Source of the DNA: a virus
IMG/VR virus record: IMGVR_UViG_3300036715_003690
Location: 1-38,728 of that record
Direction: 5' to 3' (one strand)
DNA: 38,728 nt
Program-made: the position numbers and the translations under genes
In this document: positions 13,298 through 22,603 of the stretch, one piece after another
How the letters are laid out: each line of letters begins with the position of its first letter
How positions within the stretch are numbered: position 1 is the first letter of the stretch
The notes under the pieces: generated by a model
Told to the model about the DNA's origin: nothing
Databases searched by the model: none
Seen by the model: the letters and a program-made list of their open reading frames with translations, nothing else

Positions 13298-13590
13298 TGG
13301 ATGAACGGTATTTTCGAAAATACTTAAAAGTAGGCGATCATGCTATTGCCAAAATGGACAATGATGATATTATGACAGGTGTCATAGGCATGATGGATGA
13401 CGAGTCTTTGTCTCTGCTTACTTTGGATGACGATAAAATGCTTGAGTTGTTTTTACTTTATGGCAGGATAGAATGGTTTGGTAAAATAACCCCGGGGCCA
13501 AAAGAAGTAAACGCGCAATTAGTGTCAATTATTAAACGAATAAACAAAGAACCTACGAATGACAACGATAACGAAAACGATAACCGTTGA
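13297..13590 (+). CDS. Hypothetical acidic protein
   Basis: This 97-residue acidic protein begins at a TAATG overlap; an in-frame TTG at 13282 is less likely. The pattern VGDHAIAKMDNDDIMTGVIG, then LSLLTLDDDKM, suggests a small beta barrel of the SH3/Sm sort. The end is a run of Asp, Asn and Glu that overlaps the QueD start by 32 bases. No known family was recognised. Its coupling to queD ties it to the modification operon. Confidence 0.6.
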   Translation: MDERYFRKYLKVGDHAIAKMDNDDIMTGVIGMMDDESLSLLTLDDDKMLELFLLYGRIEWFGKITPGPKEVNAQLVSIIKRINKEPTNDNDNENDNR

Positions 13591-13996
13591 CTATGGCCAT
13601 GCTCTGCATCTGCATAATGGTAGATGCAGGGGTATACATGGTCATACTGCTCGTATCACGATAGCCCTGGAAGGCACACCCTCACCTATTATGAAAGGCA
13701 CAGCTATGGAGGGTATGGTTCTTGATTATGGCACCGTGAAAGCTTTCCTGAAGGAGAGTATCGAGGAAACATTTGATCATAAATTAATTTTGTGCAAGGA
13801 TGATGAAAGATTGAATATGCTTTTATCTCACGCGGGTGTCTTTCAGAATATCTTGCGTGTTGAGGAAACACCCACTGCGGAGAATCTTGCTAAGCTATGT
13901 TTTCAAATTTTGAAAGAAAAATTCAATGGCTTTGCGAAAGTAAAATTTGTAGAATGGTGCGAGACTCCCACGAGTAGCGCACGTTATGAAGAATAA
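13559..13996 (+). CDS. queD: QueD, 6-carboxy-5,6,7,8-tetrahydropterin synthase
   Basis: This 145-residue member of the PTPS/QueD family carries out the second step of preQ0 synthesis, from dihydroneopterin triphosphate to 6-carboxytetrahydropterin. The zinc site is H14 (YGHAL) plus H27 and H29 in CRGIHGH, and the catalytic C23 sits in the same C-x3-HGH motif typical of QueD. Further active-site residues are D73-H74 (FDHK), PTAEN (105-109) and E132 and E135 in VEWCETP. Length and all key residues are normal, so the enzyme should be active. It opens the cluster that continues with FolE, QueE and QueC. Confidence 0.93.
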   Translation: MTTITKTITVDYGHALHLHNGRCRGIHGHTARITIALEGTPSPIMKGTAMEGMVLDYGTVKAFLKESIEETFDHKLILCKDDERLNMLLSHAGVFQNILRVEETPTAENLAKLCFQILKEKFNGFAKVKFVEWCETPTSSARYEE

Positions 13997-14010: not shown

Positions 14011-15096
14011 ATGGCTAAAGATAGAAAAATGATCATTTCTCCTGAAAAATACTTTTCTCTTGAGGATGAGAACTTTTATTGCTCTACTTGCAATTATAAG
14101 AAGCACTGTGAAAAAACAGTTGTTGTTAAAGCACCTTTCGAGCATGCGGATGCGAAACAATTCTTTCCTGATAACCCTTACGCGATAGCAACCATGTTCC
14201 CTGACATTGAAAAGTATCGTGCACCCCGGTTAGGCAAGCTTGCAGAAATACCCGTGGACTTTCCAAAGGTATCTTTCGTGACCCACCAGAAAATTGACGC
14301 GCACGAAAAAGTACTCACCTTTCCTTTGTCAAAGCTTTCAATGGGTATGGAGAAACGATTGACGAATCTTGCAAAGTCACGTCAATGCTCTTTAGGGTTG
14401 CTCATGTCAGATGATGATAAATCTTTGCTTAGTTGGTTATTCGGCAAAGAAGTCTTTCAAAGTAATGAGCAGTATCTTGGTGTCTATAATAACGAGGGTA
14501 TGAACATTGCAAGCCCTACTTACGCGTACTTGCAAAGGGATTGGACAAAGCCTTTTAGGGAGAAGGGATTTGAATATGTTATGTCTCCCACGGTAAGCTT
14601 TTTCTTTAATCAACCTGCTTGCTCAACTGTTCAGAATAGGCTCCTTAGTTATAAGTTTATCAAGGATTTGGTTGATAATGGTTTCCCAACAATACCTTGT
14701 TTTTTGTATCTTTGGGAGAGTGATGCAAAAGCTTTCGCGAATTGGATTAACAAGACGGGTTTTTCCCATGTCTATTTTCCAATTCAAATGGCACGTCAAG
14801 AAGTTTACCATGATTACGCGGTGAAACAATTCAAGCTGATCAGGTCTTTGCTGAACCCCAGTGTTAAGATAATTGTCGTTGGTGCCTCTACAGTTAGTCG
14901 TATCGTGCAGTATCACGCGATTGACAAGAACGCCTTGTACATGAACTCTTATATACCTGTTATATCCTCCCGCCGTTTGATCTGGGGCGTGAAGGAAAGT
15001 AGATACTCGACAGATCAATTTTATTTGAGTGATGACATCTTTATGGAAAACGCCGCTAATTTTAGAAAAGAATTGGCAAAGAAAGGAATCAAATAA
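14011..15096 (+). CDS. Unknown protein in the 7-deazaguanine cluster (DUF4417-like guess)
   Basis: This 361-residue protein is not firmly recognised. It starts behind TAAGGAACTTTT. The N-terminus has a possible metal site, C24-x2-C27-x5-C33 (FYCSTCNYKKHC). The C-terminal half (about 186-345) looks like an alpha/beta barrel. Its core is MSPTVSFFFNQP, then NRLLSYKFIKDLVDNGFPTIP, then IIVVGASTVSRI and a late NSYIPVISS. The pattern of a PxxS-x-F/Y strand, a Pro-bearing loop, then a helix and a G-x-P-x-I-P strand recalls DUF4417 proteins, and loosely the TIM-barrel fold of TGT/DpdA enzymes. Its position between queD and folE argues for a role in making or inserting the modified base. Function is unknown. 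Confidence 0.75.
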   Translation: MAKDRKMIISPEKYFSLEDENFYCSTCNYKKHCEKTVVVKAPFEHADAKQFFPDNPYAIATMFPDIEKYRAPRLGKLAEIPVDFPKVSFVTHQKIDAHEKVLTFPLSKLSMGMEKRLTNLAKSRQCSLGLLMSDDDKSLLSWLFGKEVFQSNEQYLGVYNNEGMNIASPTYAYLQRDWTKPFREKGFEYVMSPTVSFFFNQPACSTVQNRLLSYKFIKDLVDNGFPTIPCFLYLWESDAKAFANWINKTGFSHVYFPIQMARQEVYHDYAVKQFKLIRSLLNPSVKIIVVGASTVSRIVQYHAIDKNALYMNSYIPVISSRRLIWGVKESRYSTDQFYLSDDIFMENAANFRKELAKKGIK

Positions 15097-15357: not shown

Positions 15358-15915
15358 ATGAAAAAGCCAAATATAGCTGAAGGGGAGAAAATAATTGGTG
15401 ATCTGCTTGCTTGGCTTCAATTACCTGTTGACGGGCACACGAAAGACACACCAAAAAGGGTTGCTAAAATGTACCTGGAGCTTTTCTCCGGGCTGTATAA
15501 GAACCCACCCAAGATAACCACGTTCGAGGGTAAGGATGGGTATGTGGCAGTATCGAATATAAATTTCACTTCTTATTGCGCGCATCATTTGTTGCCCTTT
15601 TTTGGCAAGGTTGGTGTTGTATATCATTGCAGTAATCGCACCATTGTAGGTCTTTCCAAAATCGCGAGAATAATAGGATACCACTCTGCTAAACCACAGG
15701 TGCAAGAGAACCTTACCGCGGATATAGCAGAAGACATAATGAAACGCCTTCAGCCAAAAGGTATTTTCGTGGTGTGTTCAGCGGAGCATCTTTGCATGAC
15801 AATACGGGGTGTTAAAAGTATCGGGAGTGTCACGACAACATCTTGTATGCTTGGTGACATTGATAAGGCGGAGGCTCTTAATCTTTTACAAAGTAACAAA
15901 CAATTTTTTCAATAA
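15358..15915 (+). CDS. folE: FolE, GTP cyclohydrolase I
   Basis: This 185-residue enzyme converts GTP to 7,8-dihydroneopterin triphosphate, the first step towards preQ0. Visible motifs are TPKRVAKMY (31-39), SYCAHHLLPFFGKV with C74, H76 and H77, VGLSKIARI (97-105), QVQENLTADIAEDI (114-127) and SAEHLCMTIRGV (H144, C146). C74, H77 and C146 are the zinc ligands. The usual C-E-H-H-L-L-P-F has Ala in place of Glu at residue 75; other catalytic residues are kept. A phage copy next to queD and queE indicates local production of deazaguanine precursor rather than folate. Confidence 0.93.
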   Translation: MKKPNIAEGEKIIGDLLAWLQLPVDGHTKDTPKRVAKMYLELFSGLYKNPPKITTFEGKDGYVAVSNINFTSYCAHHLLPFFGKVGVVYHCSNRTIVGLSKIARIIGYHSAKPQVQENLTADIAEDIMKRLQPKGIFVVCSAEHLCMTIRGVKSIGSVTTTSCMLGDIDKAEALNLLQSNKQFFQ

Positions 15916-16749: not shown

Positions 16750-16881
16750 ATGGGTAACTCCGCGAAAGGCAAACCGGCAGGAAAGATGATTGCCGCGAAA
16801 GGCAAAGCCACTCCGGCACGGGGCGGCAAAGTAAATAGCAAGTCCAATCCTAAAGTAGGTAAAAGGGCACGCGGCAAATAA
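16750..16881 (+). CDS. Small Lys/Gly/Ala-rich basic protein (43 aa)
   Basis: This gene encodes MGNSAKGKPAGKMIAAKGKA followed by a further 23 residues of the same kind, ending KRARGK. It is composed almost wholly of Lys, Gly, Ala, Arg, Ser and Pro and contains a repeated SAKGKPAGK / AAKGKATPA unit. The protein is strongly positive and probably disordered, like the tails of histone H1-type or Hc1-type bacterial DNA-binding proteins. It has its own promoter upstream and a strong terminator 30 bases downstream, so it is a one-gene transcript in the middle of the modification cluster. DNA compaction or binding is the best guess. Confidence 0.7.
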   Translation: MGNSAKGKPAGKMIAAKGKATPARGGKVNSKSNPKVGKRARGK

Positions 16882-16910
16882 GCCTCCCAAAATTTCCTAT
16901 GCTTCTTCTC

Positions 16911-16936
16911 AAACCCGCTGTTATGGCGGGTTTTTT
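16911..16936 (+). terminator. Rho-independent terminator
   Basis: AACCCGC (16912-16918) pairs with GCGGGTT (16926-16932) around a 7-base loop TGTTATG, with an added A-T pair at the base and a run of six T at 16931-16936. It ends the one-gene transcript at 16750. The hairpin falls within the first codons of the long frame that begins at 16899, and one base before the ATG at 16938. Confidence 0.85.
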
Positions 16937-16937
16937 A

Positions 16938-17990
16938 ATGCCCAAAGAGTATTTTTTGTATAAAATAAAAACAGTATATTACACTAATATTTGTTACATA
17001 ATTTCGGATAAAACTTTGAAGCACGTACGCTTGGACTTCGGCTCTAATCCAGAGTTGACTCGTGTTATAGTTTCGCATGAGGATGGCTTCAAATCAATAG
17101 AGGCTATTTACCACAAGACCTCTCCTTTTTTGAATAAACTCAATTATGTTCTACTGTATTGCCTTTACGTTTATGATGAGGCAGAGATTGAGGTTCCTTA
17201 TTTTCTGAATAAAAGAATGTTTTCTGTTGTTATTAGCTATTTGGAAATATTACAAAATCGGGATAAAAAAATAATTTTTAAGGAGGTCTCTTATCATGGT
17301 TTGAACATTGAGGACTCTACAAAAAGTGTCTATCCTTTTTTGGTAATGTATTCTGGTGGTAAGGATAGCACCATGATTTCTTACCTCAATTCAAACGTAC
17401 CAGAAAGCATAAGAGTTATGTACGCGGAGTTTTTCGGGGTAACTGATAGAAGAAGGAGTGACTTTGTTATAGAGGGGAGTATGTTTTCATTACTTAGAAG
17501 GGCTCTTGGGGATGACAGATATTATAAAGAAGTGCTCGTTGAATTTGCGTATCCTATTTTTTATAACGGACAAAATATTCTTGTTGGCTATGAAAAGGAG
17601 GTTTGGGATAATCTAATTCTTGTTCAAGGCTTTGATATGAAAGCTTATTATAATTCTCTTTCCCACGCGGGTAAGCATGTTGCTTCTCCAATAAGTCACA
17701 TGGATTCTTTGACTATTCTGGAGACCCTCAAGAAGATGAAGGTAGACTTCGCTCATTGTAATAGTGAAGACTTCATGGATTTTTGCTATCACTGCTTCAA
17801 ATGTGATACTCTTTACTTGATGGGCGCGAATAAAAAATTGCATGGTTTTGACAGAAAAATGTACAAGGAAGTAACGAGGGAAGAAGACGGGGCAAGTGTT
17901 GAAGCATCACTCCTTCAGCATTATTCTGATAAACCTGCTTTACTGGAATTTTTAAGGAAAATTAATACATGCAAACAGCTAAAATTTTAA
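16938..17990 (+). CDS. Divergent QueC-like PP-loop ATPase
   Basis: This 350-residue protein has a PP-loop, VMYSGGKDST (S139-G-G-K-D-S-T145), which adenylates carbonyl or carboxylate substrates. It ends with C274-x8-C283-x2-C286-x2-C289, the exact cysteine spacing of the QueC zinc site. Before it is ASPISHMDSLTILETLKKM, which parallels the SPFVHMDKTDMV of the QueC at 18729. The QueC motifs for substrate binding (RN, PDR, SCY) are missing, and an unrelated N-terminal region of about 130 residues is added. It is therefore a QueC relative with another substrate, perhaps the carboxyl or nitrile group of the deazaguanine. The in-frame ATG at 16899 lies before a terminator hairpin, so 16938 or a later start is preferred. 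Confidence 0.7.
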   Translation: MPKEYFLYKIKTVYYTNICYIISDKTLKHVRLDFGSNPELTRVIVSHEDGFKSIEAIYHKTSPFLNKLNYVLLYCLYVYDEAEIEVPYFLNKRMFSVVISYLEILQNRDKKIIFKEVSYHGLNIEDSTKSVYPFLVMYSGGKDSTMISYLNSNVPESIRVMYAEFFGVTDRRRSDFVIEGSMFSLLRRALGDDRYYKEVLVEFAYPIFYNGQNILVGYEKEVWDNLILVQGFDMKAYYNSLSHAGKHVASPISHMDSLTILETLKKMKVDFAHCNSEDFMDFCYHCFKCDTLYLMGANKKLHGFDRKMYKEVTREEDGASVEASLLQHYSDKPALLEFLRKINTCKQLKF

Positions 17991-18757
17991 CGATGGTTCG
18001 GGAGGATCGCTTTGCCATGTTCTCAAAGGTTATGACGAATCTCTTGTTGAACACGACGAGCATAAGTATAGAGTGGGAAATTCTCACGTACTCGATGGAT
18101 TTCGCGAAATTCTTCAAAACGGAATTCGCAATTGCTAAACGAAACAAACACCTTATTGACGTGCACCTTGTTTCTCATGATGTCTCCATGCCCGCGGCGA
18201 AAGCACGATGGGCTCTGTCGCACGAGGGGTATGACGTTTTTCTCGTGCTTGATGACGATGTTTTGATCGCTCAAAATGACTTTCAGAAAATAGTCGAAGC
18301 AATGGAAAAATTGGATAGTGACAAAAAATGTACCCCTGATATGATAGTCATATCCACGGTTGATGTCGAGAATGCACGTGGCTTCCCGGATTACACGGAC
18401 AAGGTTTTTTCAAACCCCGATGGTACCGACATTATTTTGAGGAAGGACATTCCACTTAAGATGTATGGCAAGGTTCGTTTTGATCATGTTGGTCCGGCGT
18501 ATGGTGTCTCGGGTACGTATATTATAAAAAGAGATTGCTTTTTAGCTCTCTACGAGTCATTCATAGCCTATAAAAAAGGTGAACGTGGTTATGACACGGA
18601 ATTATTCTTGAGTATACCGGAGGATAAACGGGTGCAATTGGGTCAGGCGACCGCGTGGCATATAGGTTGCTATGAGCCTTTTTTTAACGAGCATTGGAAA
18701 GGTATGCGGAAGGAGGTTAGTGATTATTATGAAGCCAAAGAAAGTCCTACTGTATAG
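17969..18757 (+). CDS. GT-A fold glycosyltransferase
   Basis: This 262-residue protein looks like a family 2-type, nucleotide-sugar-dependent glycosyltransferase. The strand and metal site VFLVLDDDVLI (D95-D97) is a DxD motif that binds UDP- or GDP-sugar through a metal ion. An upstream Rossmann-like start (AKILTMVREDRF), an acceptor-side segment GPAYGVSGTYIIKRDCF and a late AWHIGCYEPFFNEHW fit the fold. The start overlaps the PP-loop gene by 22 bases and its end covers the QueC start, so it is co-translated with both. Its setting inside the 7-deazaguanine operon suggests that the acceptor is the modified base or DNA; this is inferred. Confidence 0.75.
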   Translation: MQTAKILTMVREDRFAMFSKVMTNLLLNTTSISIEWEILTYSMDFAKFFKTEFAIAKRNKHLIDVHLVSHDVSMPAAKARWALSHEGYDVFLVLDDDVLIAQNDFQKIVEAMEKLDSDKKCTPDMIVISTVDVENARGFPDYTDKVFSNPDGTDIILRKDIPLKMYGKVRFDHVGPAYGVSGTYIIKRDCFLALYESFIAYKKGERGYDTELFLSIPEDKRVQLGQATAWHIGCYEPFFNEHWKGMRKEVSDYYEAKESPTV

Positions 18758-19496
18758 TGGTGGTCTTGACTCCTTTATTGCTTCTGCTTACTTGAAACCC
18801 GATATGCGGGTATACGTTCCTCTTGGGCATAGGTACCAGGAAGCTGAGATGAAGTCCATTATGAGGACAAATCATGTAGGAAAAATACATTATGCCCCGG
18901 GCATGCACATTGGGGCATTCGAAAAAAATGACGCTGAAATCCCCCTTCGGAATTCTTATCTTTGCCATGTTGCAACGAGTATGGCACTTCGTGAATACCC
19001 GGCAGCAAACAGCTACATGATTGCTCTTATTGTTCAGGAGGATGAAATGAGTATCCCTGACAGGACACAAGAATTTATGATGAACATGAGCACGCTTCTT
19101 ACAAGTCTGTCCGGGAAAAATATCATCGTGGAGTCTCCTTTCGTGCACATGGACAAAACAGACATGGTTCATTGGTACATTGAAAATTATGGCAAGTCTG
19201 GCATAGCTTCGCTCGTGAGTACACATTCTTGCTATAGCCCGGTTCGTAGTAACTCGGGTTTTATTGAATGTGGTAATTGCCCGGCTTGCTTTCGAAAATT
19301 TGTTGCTCTGGCAAACAATGATATTACAGGAAATTTCGCGGTGAATCCTGCTGAGTCAACCACGGCGCGTACTTACTTGGAGAACCTAAATAAGTATAGC
19401 GAGAAAAGACAGCACCGCATAAAGGATGCTATTGCTAAGAAAACACGACTATTTATTACGAAAGAAATTACGCATGGACGAGAAAAAAGAAGATAA
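18729..19496 (+). CDS. queC: QueC, 7-cyano-7-deazaguanine (preQ0) synthase
   Basis: This 255-residue enzyme converts 7-carboxy-7-deazaguanine to preQ0 with ATP and ammonia. Motifs: PP-loop LLYSGGLDS (10-15), IPLRNSYLCHVATSMAL, SIPDRTQEFMMN (the PDR motif), ESPFVHMDKTDMV, and STHSCYSP with CGNCPAC as zinc site. The first Cys is separated from the next by 12 residues instead of the usual 8. The ATG at 18729 is chosen because GAAGGAGG (up to 18716) is the clearest Shine-Dalgarno site in the window, 12 bases ahead, and because the fold begins right at KKVLLYSGG. It overlaps the GT-A gene by 29 bases. Confidence 0.88.
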   Translation: MKPKKVLLYSGGLDSFIASAYLKPDMRVYVPLGHRYQEAEMKSIMRTNHVGKIHYAPGMHIGAFEKNDAEIPLRNSYLCHVATSMALREYPAANSYMIALIVQEDEMSIPDRTQEFMMNMSTLLTSLSGKNIIVESPFVHMDKTDMVHWYIENYGKSGIASLVSTHSCYSPVRSNSGFIECGNCPACFRKFVALANNDITGNFAVNPAESTTARTYLENLNKYSEKRQHRIKDAIAKKTRLFITKEITHGREKRR

Positions 19497-19611
19497 ACTT
19501 GAAGGTAAAAGGATAAAATTCATACGTGCACGTGGTTCTTCCAATGGTGACCCCCATGTTACTTTAGAGTACCTGGAGCCAAATGCCGGGGTGGGTGAGG
19601 TGGCTGAATGA
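19474..19611 (+). CDS. Small hypothetical protein (45 aa)
   Basis: This 45-residue protein starts inside the QueC end (ATG at 19474). Its stop overlaps the next gene in an ATGA arrangement. After a charged start (MDEKKEDKLEGKRIKFIRAR) it has a short strand-turn-strand and ends in EVAE. The two overlaps indicate a translated linker gene. No function is recognised. Confidence 0.55.
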   Translation: MDEKKEDKLEGKRIKFIRARGSSNGDPHVTLEYLEPNAGVGEVAE

Positions 19612-20582
19612 TTTTAATAAACAGGTTGCATAAGACTGCTGATTCTTGGAGCAAGGATTTTCAGGAACGTCTTGAGGCTGTCGCGGATAATCGTGTCCTT
19701 TTTTATGGGGAGCCTATCTCCGTTTTGAGCAACTCAACGTTGTTTGAAAACCTTGCTTATTATGGTTATAAATCAATGCTTGAATTGCGTGGGAAAGTAG
19801 AAATGATCGGGCATGAGAACATCGAGAAAATAATTTTCTTGGATTCTATGCAATTGCCCTTCCAACAAATGATTGGTCTTGATAGGGAAATTCCTTTTGA
19901 GATATACGTGCACGTGTCAAAGGATTATCAAGATTATGTGCACGCTCCAGCGTACTATAAGCAAAATTCTCTTTGTACACCGATGCTCGTGTCAACTTCT
20001 TCAACAGCTTTATCTTATGGTTTGCATGAATCACAATATAGGTCTATTGGTTGCCCCTTGCTTCCTTTTCAGAATGCCTCTATTAAAAGAAGCAAGACGG
20101 TTATTTGGGCAGGAAATGATATTAACAATCCTGTAAAAGGATTTCCTGATTTTCAAAAACTAATGCGTGAATTTCCTGATTTTGAATTTCATGTTTGCAC
20201 GAGACGAATACCCTTATCCGTGGCGGAAACTCTAGCAAAGGAACATCCTAATATGGAGTTACACGTGGGACTTACTTCGGAGGAATACCAGAAGCTTGCA
20301 TCCACTTGCGAGATTATCGTGAGCACAGCCTTTTGTGAGTCCTTTGGCCTTTCCGTTATGGATGCTGTCGCAACAGGGACTATCCCTTTATGCCGAGATG
20401 TTGGTTCTTATCATGATCTGTTTCCACGGAATTTCCTGTACTCGGATATTCTTCAAGCTGATCTTTATAAAGCTCAAAGGACTGATGAGGCAGGCTTTCT
20501 TAGTTTGGAAATGGTGGTGAATCATTTCTCAGCAAAAAATGTGTACGAACGTCTTATAAATCCTATGGATTGTCACGGGTGA
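19608..20582 (+). CDS. GT-B fold (GT4-like) glycosyltransferase
   Basis: This 324-residue protein has the C-terminal half of a GT4-type glycosyltransferase. Visible segments are TVIWAGNDINNPVKGFPDF (about 164-182), FEFHVCTRR, LHVGLTSEEYQKLASTCEI (219-236), ending with STAFCESFGLSVMDAVATG (E244). In that motif the Glu and the following FG bind the nucleotide sugar. The N-terminal half is alpha/beta without a clear signature. There is no membrane segment. It is placed between QueC and DpdA, with a coupled start to the small gene at 19474. A second sugar transferase of another fold in the same operon suggests two-step decoration of the modified base, though the acceptor cannot be read from the sequence. 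Confidence 0.75.
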   Translation: MILINRLHKTADSWSKDFQERLEAVADNRVLFYGEPISVLSNSTLFENLAYYGYKSMLELRGKVEMIGHENIEKIIFLDSMQLPFQQMIGLDREIPFEIYVHVSKDYQDYVHAPAYYKQNSLCTPMLVSTSSTALSYGLHESQYRSIGCPLLPFQNASIKRSKTVIWAGNDINNPVKGFPDFQKLMREFPDFEFHVCTRRIPLSVAETLAKEHPNMELHVGLTSEEYQKLASTCEIIVSTAFCESFGLSVMDAVATGTIPLCRDVGSYHDLFPRNFLYSDILQADLYKAQRTDEAGFLSLEMVVNHFSAKNVYERLINPMDCHG

Positions 20583-20586
20583 GAAA

Positions 20587-21579
20587 ATGGAATTAATATT
20601 CGCGGGTGTGGAAGACAGGCAGATCAGGAATGATTGCTATAGCGCGGGAGTCAAGAAAGTCCTGATGTCCTATTACTATATTATTGACAAGGGTGTTCCC
20701 TTTGACGAAGTTCTCGATATGTTTCCTCTCGTTGTTCTTGATTCTGGGGCTTTCACCATGTTCTCAAAAGCACAAGATAATCACGAGAAAATTAACCATG
20801 TCAAATATCTTTCAGACTATCTCAATTTCGCATCCAAGTATATTGGGAGACTCTTTTGGGTCGCTAACTATGATGTTAACCTGCTTGTGGGGGACAAACA
20901 GGTCTATGATTGGAATAAAGAATTTGAGCAATTGGAGAAAGAAGGTCAGCGAGTCTGCTATGTCACTCACGATTATAGCCTACCATACAAGAATCTTTAC
21001 GAATACTTTGATCGTTATAACTTTATAGGTGCATCAGGTGGTATCAATTCAAAAACTGATACTGGATACTTTGAGCAAGTATACAATCTCTCCTACAGGT
21101 ACAGGAAATTGGTTCATGGGTTCGCTATGACAAACTTCGTGTCATTTGATAAATTTCCCTTGTTTAGTGCTGATTCAACCACGTATTTTAGTGGTGGTAA
21201 ATATGGCATCACATATGTCTGGAATGGGAGTTTCTTTGAGACGATTGATTACACGAAGAAGGAAGCTATTCGTAGACAGCAATTTCGTACCTGCCATAAA
21301 TGGGGTGTTGACTTTGGCAAATTCATGGATGATAATACTCGGCAGGTGAATAAATTCAATATCAATGCTTGGCTTATGAATGAGAAAAATTTTAACAGGA
21401 GAACACTGAATAGACAATGGTGGCTCACTGAAGCAGAACGCGATTTCATTAAAACGAATCCTTTTTACATGTGTACACCAAATGAGCTTGAAGTAATGCA
21501 CGGTGTAGCACCAAAGGTTGCGCCGAAAGGCCGACGTGGTAGACGAAAGAAAAAGAAAGAAGAAAATGGCAACACTTAA
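20587..21579 (+). CDS. dpdA: DpdA-like DNA-guanine transglycosylase
   Basis: This 330-residue TGT-related enzyme exchanges guanine in DNA for a 7-deazaguanine base. Signature segments are VVLDSGAFTMF (D52-S-G54), FWVANYDVN (D96), VCYVTHDYS, FIGASGGI (147-153), HGFAMTN (177-183) and FSADSTTY (D196). The LDSGAFT and SADST motifs are typical of phage DpdA, where the Asp residues serve as nucleophile and general acid. The C-terminus is a basic tail, KGRRGRRKKKKEE, that likely aids DNA binding. It follows the GT-B gene by 4 bases and overlaps the HNH gene by 14. No tRNA-queuosine role is expected, because this is the DNA-type branch of the family. Confidence 0.88.
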   Translation: MELIFAGVEDRQIRNDCYSAGVKKVLMSYYYIIDKGVPFDEVLDMFPLVVLDSGAFTMFSKAQDNHEKINHVKYLSDYLNFASKYIGRLFWVANYDVNLLVGDKQVYDWNKEFEQLEKEGQRVCYVTHDYSLPYKNLYEYFDRYNFIGASGGINSKTDTGYFEQVYNLSYRYRKLVHGFAMTNFVSFDKFPLFSADSTTYFSGGKYGITYVWNGSFFETIDYTKKEAIRRQQFRTCHKWGVDFGKFMDDNTRQVNKFNINAWLMNEKNFNRRTLNRQWWLTEAERDFIKTNPFYMCTPNELEVMHGVAPKVAPKGRRGRRKKKKEENGNT

Positions 21580-22603
21580 AGAGCAGAAAAAGAAGCAAGC
21601 AGAAGAAGACAGCAAGAAATTAACCACGAAGGAGAAGAAAAAGCTTCGTAATGAGATAACTCACAAGTTAAGGTTCGAGATTCTTGAAAGAGATCAGCAT
21701 CGTTGTAAACGCTGCGGTGCATCTCCAAAAACTGATCCCACGGTAGAATTGGTAATAGATCACATTGTGCCGCTTTCAGCTGGAGGGACAAATGACCTCA
21801 CGAATTTGGAGACGCTCTGTCATTCTTGTAACGAGGGGAAGAAGGATACTGTCATACAAAAGAAGGTTGATAAACTCGTTGTGAATCCAGTAGAATTCTA
21901 TCAGATACAGACAGAAGGTGAAATACAATCTTTCTTCCTTTCTCCTTCAAATGAAGAAGCAAGACAATGGCTATTCACAACGCATGAAAAAAATGGCACA
22001 GACTGTCCCCGTGACTGTGGTTTATGCGTGACAAAGAAGCAATTCTACAATCATTGTTTCAACATGCTTACCCGTGAGCTTAAAAGTCAAGGAGGTTCCC
22101 AGACGATCGAGGTGCGGAAGATAGAAGCCAACCCGTTATTACAGGATGACCTCATTGTTTGCAACACTTGCTATCTTGCTGGACGGTGCCCTAAATTTGT
22201 GGTGAATCAATCTTGCGTTTTTAATTTTTCGCTGGATACTGATTTTAGTGATACTAAAACTGGTATGCGTGTTCTTGTTAATATCCAAAAGGAGCGTGTT
22301 ATGCGTGCAGTCCTGAATGAGAAAATTGATGGTGGCGTTCTTGACAAGAATTTAACAAACGAGATAAGTGTACTATCCCAGCTTATGTTTAATGTTGAAA
22401 ATCTAAATTCAGACAACACGCAATCTATCGAGATAAAAGCTACCGGGTCAAAAGGCACGGGTATTCTTGCCACTTTATTTGGTGATCTCCTGCAAGGACG
22501 GTCTGCCCTGGCCCCGGTGGCTGTTCAGCAATTGCCCGCGGCAGAGGTAGTGAATCCTGTATCTGAAGTGCTAAATATGGCGAAGGTTCCTTCTAAAAGT
22601 TAA
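21566..22603 (+). CDS. HNH endonuclease fused to a Cys-rich C-terminal region
   Basis: This 345-residue protein begins with a Lys-rich helix (1-35) and then an HNH nuclease: RCKRCG (C47, C50), LVIDHIVPLSAGGTNDLTN (D65, H66, N80) and LCHSCN (C85, C88). A second region has two more Cys groups: C147, C151, C154, C164 (DCPRDCGLC) and C199, C202, C208, C217 (CNTCYLAGRC). A helical end (about 230-345) follows, with VNIQKERVMRAVLNEKI and IEIKATGSKGTG. The C-terminal layout reminds me of small proteins near phage terminases, but I cannot name the family. A free-standing homing HNH is unlikely because of the fusion. The start at 21566 is the first ATG with a sensible leader (AAGAAGAAA). Confidence 0.75.
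   Translation: MATLKEQKKKQAEEDSKKLTTKEKKKLRNEITHKLRFEILERDQHRCKRCGASPKTDPTVELVIDHIVPLSAGGTNDLTNLETLCHSCNEGKKDTVIQKKVDKLVVNPVEFYQIQTEGEIQSFFLSPSNEEARQWLFTTHEKNGTDCPRDCGLCVTKKQFYNHCFNMLTRELKSQGGSQTIEVRKIEANPLLQDDLIVCNTCYLAGRCPKFVVNQSCVFNFSLDTDFSDTKTGMRVLVNIQKERVMRAVLNEKIDGGVLDKNLTNEISVLSQLMFNVENLNSDNTQSIEIKATGSKGTGILATLFGDLLQGRSALAPVAVQQLPAAEVVNPVSEVLNMAKVPSKS

Follow-up and report, generated by a model that had tools for sequence, protein, structure and literature searches.

Why should a phage operon for 7-deazaguanine DNA modification carry two glycosyltransferase (GT) genes? The question is raised by IMG/VR virus record IMGVR_UViG_3300036715_003690, a complete record of 38,728 bases that was analyzed in full and is called the window here. 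Judging from genes read as open reading frames (ORFs) for a DNA polymerase, a helicase, a RecA-like protein and tail proteins, the window virus, which is uncultured, is a tailed phage; portal and terminase ORFs were read in a longer IMG/VR contig of 72,277 bases. Because that contig matches the operon region base for base, a misassembly confined to the window record does not account for the operon. Our analysis suggests that both enzymes, a GT-B enzyme and a probable GT-A enzyme, are likely to glycosylate the 7-deazaguanine base, or a precursor, en route to phage DNA.

The two glycosyltransferases of the window

An original prediction, made from the letters of the sequence, had described a GT-A enzyme with DDD at residues 95-97 and a GT-B enzyme with the motif CESFGLSVMDAVATG, and both ORFs were located where it had placed them. 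The GT-B gene encodes 324 aa, with CESFGLSVMDAVATG at residue 243, and matched families in Pfam (1.9e-4), PHROG (1.2e-7) and NCBIfam (IagA/BgsA, 3.6e-9). An AlphaFold (AF2) model with a predicted local distance difference test (pLDDT) score of 77 contained two Rossmann-like domains, which matched solved GT-B enzymes from end to end. About 300 residues were superposed on solved GT4 enzymes with Z scores of 21-25 (up to 24.7), and Foldseek gave template modelling (TM) scores of 0.6-0.74 for most top matches. By these family matches and this model the gene product is, beyond chance, a glycosyltransferase of the GT-B/GT4 fold. The matches include cyanobacterial UDP-glucose:tetrahydrobiopterin glucosyltransferases (Z 22-24), BshA and SenB; matches less than 1 Z apart were treated as tied, and the fold does not give the acceptor. 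The T4 alpha- and beta-GTs were not among the solved-structure matches listed, which excludes nothing. In the donor site E244 and K177 are kept, and two other conserved positions are substituted.

The GT-A protein has 262 aa, and its DDD lies within FLVLDDDVLI, a DxD-type motif that follows a beta strand read from the sequence. Its match to Pfam GT2 (E=0.0058, 17.0 bits) fell under the gathering cut-off of 23.3, so the protein is called probable and is not filed as GT2. The sub-threshold match, the motifs and synteny indicate that it is probably a GT2-like GT-A enzyme. A single-sequence AlphaFold model reached a pLDDT of 37.7 and was unusable for the fold. No homologs were found in cultured phages, plasmids or other IMG/VR viruses, and a profile of four neighbouring GT2-like genes failed to tell the protein from its own shuffled sequences. 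The predicted pairing of two different folds therefore holds by model for GT-B but is only probable for GT-A.

Related phages carry a GT-B gene in the same slot

Two contigs, L007 (54 kb) and L012 (26 kb), carry the same operon as the window, and the DNA-guanine transglycosylase DpdA of the window is 42-47% identical to theirs. In a third, the GC-rich contig L014, DpdA is 27% identical to that of the window. All three have a GT-B gene at the window's slot even though DpdA is only 27-47% identical. The gene meets DpdA in two of the three, touching it in L007 and overlapping the DpdA start with its own end in L014. Between QueE and DpdA, L007 has a GNAT-SET gene, a FemAB-like gene and a pair of SET genes; these are joined there by a PP-loop gene resembling QueC, one resembling GT2, QueD2 (our working name for a short QueD-like family of 112 aa) and GT-B. 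Upstream of DpdA in L012 are a PP-loop gene, QueD2, two GT-B genes and a methyltransferase gene, and the gene set of L014 is QueD, QueE, FolE, QueD2, radical SAM, GT-B and DpdA. The GT2-like gene of L007 follows the PP-loop gene, the position held by GT-A in the window. No homology between these two proteins was detectable, indicating that the slot is conserved and the protein different.

GT-B1, a virus-only family in DpdA and Que clusters

The first GT-B of L012 and the GT-Bs of L014 and L007 were aligned to define a family designated GT-B1, which was used to scan IMG/VR. An ascertainment limit is that these three query members had been found through DpdA; the relatives retrieved, 23-38% identical, were not picked by context. 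The scan returned 72 loci, mostly 23-39% identical with the query's own copy set aside, and at least one of DpdA, QueE, QueD and FolE lay within about 12 kb in 72/72 of them (FolE in 59, DpdA in 57, QueE in 51, QueD in 41); QueD2 was present in 68. The same four genes occurred in 0/17 random loci (Fisher P 1e-16), a small control of 166 kb fetched by arbitrary 15-mer. Chance placement of GT-B beside DpdA and Que genes was rejected on this association.

With near-duplicates removed, 53 loci remained: DpdA was present in 45, was the next gene in 26 and lay within 20 bp in 25, and a radical SAM gene was found in 27/53. The typical operon on these 53 viral contigs (L028-L099) reads QueD-QueE-FolE-QueD2-radical SAM-GT-B-DpdA, mostly without QueC, although order and completeness vary. 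A QueC match (PF06508) above cut-off was found in just 1/45 records, a 436-kb record in which it lies away from the locus. Most clusters have a single GT-B only. A GT2 gene stands directly 5' of GT-B1 in L032 and L039 (E 5e-11 and 6e-6, respectively), which indicates that the GT-A/GT-B pair is a repeated but not a general feature, and the L094/L095 cluster includes a sugar epimerase gene. QueD2 corresponds to phrog_17812, of unknown function, and the GT-B1 members tried had no PHROG match. When the GT-B1 alignment was scanned against 84,980 genomes of bacteria and archaea, no relative appeared, although distant ones could be missed by a scan that needs exact short conserved stretches. The 72/72 versus 0/17 loci and the three related phages strongly support the predicted sugar transfer within the 7-deazaguanine pathway and so bear out the prediction in part; sugar in DNA, activity of both GTs and addition of two sugars in steps are proposals.

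GT-B1 also lies inside the Que clusters of the cultured phages PA5oct, ACP17, BUCT-ZZ01, X1 and Phosso. In Xanthomonas phage PhiXhv-12 it stands beside a GATase-QueC fusion, a PIG-L GlcNAc deacetylase gene and GNAT/FemAB-like genes. The fusion (L025, 4618-6743) is annotated as a glutamine-fructose-6-phosphate aminotransferase, an assignment that we rejected (Pfam QueC 2.3e-49), and a search of its surroundings did not find the remaining Que genes. The deacetylase next to the GT suggests that an N-acetylhexosamine might be the sugar in this phage.

Near the GT-B of PhiXhv-12 are also a FemAB/GNAT fusion and a Leu/Phe-tRNA-protein transferase. Positions 2887-5201 of L007 likewise encode a GNAT-SET fusion, a FemAB/ATE-like protein and two SET-domain proteins within its 7-deazaguanine operon. 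Aminoacyl or methyl decoration of the sugar or base is conceivable from neighbours of this type.

Layout of the operon

The genes of the operon lie in the following order.

13559..13996, + strand: QueD (6-carboxy-tetrahydropterin synthase); Pfam PTPS 7.8e-27, phrog_2389 2.8e-27
14011..15096, + strand: ORF for a protein of 361 aa with no family assigned, between QueD and FolE
15358..15915, + strand: FolE (GTP cyclohydrolase I); Pfam 4.9e-52, 58% identity to FolE of L007
15931..16686, + strand: QueE (7-carboxy-7-deazaguanine (CDG) synthase, radical SAM); phrog_2076 3.8e-33, 45% identity to QueE of L007
16899..17990, start probably 16938, + strand: PP-loop ATPase, a divergent QueC paralog; SGGKDS at 152, C(x)8CxxCxxC
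17969..18757, + strand: GT-A, probable GT2-like glycosyltransferase; DDD 95-97, sub-threshold Pfam GT2 match
18729..19496 (longest ORF from 18672), + strand: QueC, divergent; Pfam QueC 2.4e-16 and motifs
19474..19611, + strand: 45-aa ORF overlapping QueC and GT-B; sequence only
19608..20582, + strand: GT-B, GT4-like glycosyltransferase; NCBIfam IagA/BgsA, AF2 model, GT4 matches in the PDB
20587..21579, + strand: DpdA catalytic domain (DNA-guanine transglycosylase); phrog_887 3.7e-27
21518..22603, ATG probably 21566, + strand: HNH endonuclease domain fused to the DpdA C-terminal part; Pfam HNH 3.6e-12

The window operon thus contains FolE, QueD and QueE, as does the known phage pathway for 7-deazaguanine DNA modification. 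From the PP-loop gene through the HNH gene, every pair of neighbours either overlaps or lies 4 bases apart. The PP-loop ORF and GT-A share 22 bp; the overlap of GT-A with QueC is 29 bp, with the QueC start taken as 18729 rather than 18672 because AAGGAGG lies upstream of it; QueC runs into the 45-aa ORF, which overlaps GT-B by 4 bp. This small ORF may encode a coupling peptide or else not be a gene. The coupling of both GT genes with QueC is therefore tighter than had been described. QueC does lie between them, but a second QueC-like gene upstream of GT-A had been missed, as had the gap of only 4 bases between GT-B and DpdA.

Other features of the region were recorded. The 361-aa protein was unmatched in Pfam, PHROG, NCBIfam, PADLOC and cultured phages and had no significant match in the PDB. 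Just 5' of the probable PP-loop start lies a strongly basic ORF of 43 aa, and behind it come a GC-rich hairpin and a T run (16751-16936). Read by eye, the hairpin and T run near 16936 may split the operon into two transcription units; this element was absent from the terminator scan output. The longer contig of the window virus has two DNA-methylase-like ORFs, also read by eye (listed coordinates L119 16162-17007, L120 3331-4443 and L121 1-429), and one of its ends encodes a repeated peptide, SPVLPPFWEA (same L119/L120/L121 entry).

QueC, its paralog and a split DpdA

Both QueC-like proteins of the window depart from the canonical QueC signature. QueC itself has SGGLDS, IPLRN and C(x)12CxxCxxC, with IPDR where YPDC is expected, and it scored above the Pfam QueC cut-off and below the NCBIfam equivalog cut-off. 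The Tyr of YPDC is required in E. coli QueC (PMC13329287). In the QueC family and the amide-forming Cap9/QatC enzymes (PMC13329287), SGGxDS, [VI]PxRN and the Cys4 motif are shared with the window QueC, which differs in IPDR and in having its Cys residues spaced more widely. The PP-loop paralog shares SGGKDS and Cys4 and lacks the other motifs. The paralog is 30% identical (E 4e-12) to the L012 protein of the same slot. Its L007 homolog has a weak Pfam QueC match (E 0.004) and a P-loop that is not intact (SKGLES). Relatives were seen only in L012 and L007; a scan for the family found only the window virus and L012, and a search of cultured phages found no relative.

The window DpdA has the catalytic residues of tRNA-guanine transglycosylase (TGT)-type enzymes (D52SGAF, H177 and D196). 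Residues 201-331 of the HNH-fusion ORF match residues 352-481 of phrog_887. Streptomyces phage BRock has a single-chain DpdA, and its residues 356-466 align with the ORF (E 5e-15). DpdA is split in three phages (window 20587-22603, L007 8001-9951, L012 9001-10987) into a catalytic gene and a Cys-rich C-terminal half behind an HNH domain, while the BRock protein has both halves in one 500-aa chain.

Proposed function and alternatives

The gene content and order and the predicted GT-B fold were observed, as was a GT-B family that occurs repeatedly and exclusively with DpdA and Que genes. We infer from them the enzyme activity, acceptor, sugar, attachment atom, step order, presence in DNA and protective role of the following scheme. 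FolE, QueD and QueE would make CDG, and QueC with its paralog would activate the C7 carboxylate of CDG with ATP. GT-B, with GT-A probably helping, would move a sugar from a host nucleotide sugar onto the C7 substituent, working ahead of DpdA on the free base or after it on DNA, and DpdA would swap guanine in phage DNA for the modified base. This would yield a bulky guanine analogue bearing sugar, which would shield the DNA from restriction. In the known pathway FolE, QueD and QueE yield CDG, QueC converts it to 7-amido-7-deazaguanine (ADG) and then preQ0, and DpdA replaces guanine in DNA by the modified base (PMC6884629, PMC13329287).

Several points weigh against this scheme. At two conserved positions the GT-B donor site has N170 in place of R and D252 in place of the second E of EX7E. 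The GT-B1 profile covers only the C-terminal donor half of the window protein (aa 187-283, 41 bits), so its acceptor half may differ from that of GT-B1. As the profile match is not full length, the window GT-B is kept apart from the GT-B1 family, though the slot is the same. Its nearest full-length relative is a single protein, the second GT-B of L012 (GT-B2; 26% identity, E 3e-8, over most of the length), and the others align in the donor half. The argument from family to window therefore runs through operon slot, similarity of the donor half, the relative in L012 and gene coupling. GT-A lacks a confident family match, and no sugar-nucleotide genes were recognized either in the window or elsewhere on the 72-kb contig, a part seen as ORFs only. 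To our knowledge, no known 7-deazaguanine DNA base carries a hydroxyl handle. The sugar would then have to be bonded to the carboxylate, to the nitrogen of an amide or amine, or to a group that a further enzyme, such as the radical SAM protein, introduces. A CDG ester is a possible and attractive linkage where QueC is missing. QueC relatives have been proposed to make amides with protein amines (PMC13329287), and with the non-canonical QueC-like proteins of the window an amide-linked group is possible too.

The sugar could instead be placed on a small pathway molecule, either a pterin of the dihydroneopterin triphosphate or carboxytetrahydropterin (H2NTP/CPH4) type or free CDG or preQ0, and the product kept outside DNA as a cofactor, decoy or export form. 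FolE and QueD make pterins, and the closest folds include the tetrahydrobiopterin glucosyltransferases, BshA and SenB, all small-molecule enzymes. Those matches, however, tie with other GT4 enzymes and do not fix the acceptor, and GT-B1 most often adjoins DpdA, the enzyme that inserts the base into DNA; we regard this explanation as unlikely. Phage GTs commonly modify virion proteins or host surface glycans, and two viral loci with generic GT4 domains related to the window GT-B (L004 and L005) have no Que or DpdA gene nearby. Such a target, with the operon position due to chance, is nevertheless very improbable given the 72/72 association, the gene overlaps and recurrence of the slot beside DpdAs only 27-47% identical.

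That one or both GTs are degenerate or repurposed, leaving the base unglycosylated, would fit N170 and D252, the weak GT-A match and the divergence of QueC and the PP-loop paralog. Open, tightly coupled frames, the conserved E244 and K177 and a complete predicted fold make it very unlikely. In animal cells two GTs act on queuosine to give mannosyl- and galactosyl-queuosine, a precedent for a GT-A and GT-B pair on a 7-deazaguanine, and DpdA is related to tRNA-guanine transglycosylase. Modification of tRNA by the window pathway is still very improbable, as its transglycosylase belongs to the phage DpdA family (phrog_887) and QueA, QueG and QueH were all absent from the phages with such genes in a published survey (PMC6884629).

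We therefore favour glycosylation on the way to DNA. A wider proposal, for which the chances appear evenly balanced, is that a widespread virus-only pathway writes glycosylated 7-deazaguanine into phage DNA, with the sugar perhaps on the CDG carboxylate or a derived amide or amine. The window would be a variant that has two GTs and, besides QueC, a paralog of it, and the product a class of DNA base undescribed in the literature accessible to us.

Comparison with known systems

The sugar-bearing phage DNA bases known to us are pyrimidines. If the proposal is true, sugar-type hypermodification extends to a purine, a guanine analogue, with a possible extra shield against restriction, and the GT-B1 family and phrog_17812 gain a function. 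The module is present in cultured phages (PA5oct, X1, ACP17, BUCT-ZZ01, Phosso), which makes the idea directly testable.

Known phage 7-deazaguanine DNA modification (PMC6884629) shares with the window the core genes FolE, QueD, QueE, QueC (divergent in the window) and DpdA, the presumed chemistry to CDG or preQ0 and insertion by DpdA; the window adds two GT genes, a second QueC-like ATPase and a DpdA split by an HNH domain. The bases described are dPreQ0, dADG, dPreQ1 and dG+, and the word 'glycosyl' is absent from the text of that 2019 survey (PMC6884629). A limited literature search found no glycosylated 7-deazaguanine in DNA.

T-even phages modify hydroxymethylcytosine with alpha- and beta-GTs and build disaccharides with alpha-GT and TAGT (PMC13390438). 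Paired phage GTs acting on a DNA base would be common to both systems, and in T6-like phages a second GT extends the first sugar (PMC13390438), a precedent by which stepwise addition of two sugars is possible in the window. The T-even analogy is not transferable chemically, as the known 7-deazaguanine DNA bases lack a comparable hydroxyl: the window base would be a guanine analogue without a hydroxymethyl handle, and its GT-B resembles GT4 enzymes. Among these, tetrahydrobiopterin glucosyltransferase, BshA and SenB share the predicted fold (Z 21-24), whereas the window protein is only 10-15% identical to them, stands in a different gene context and has N170 and D252.

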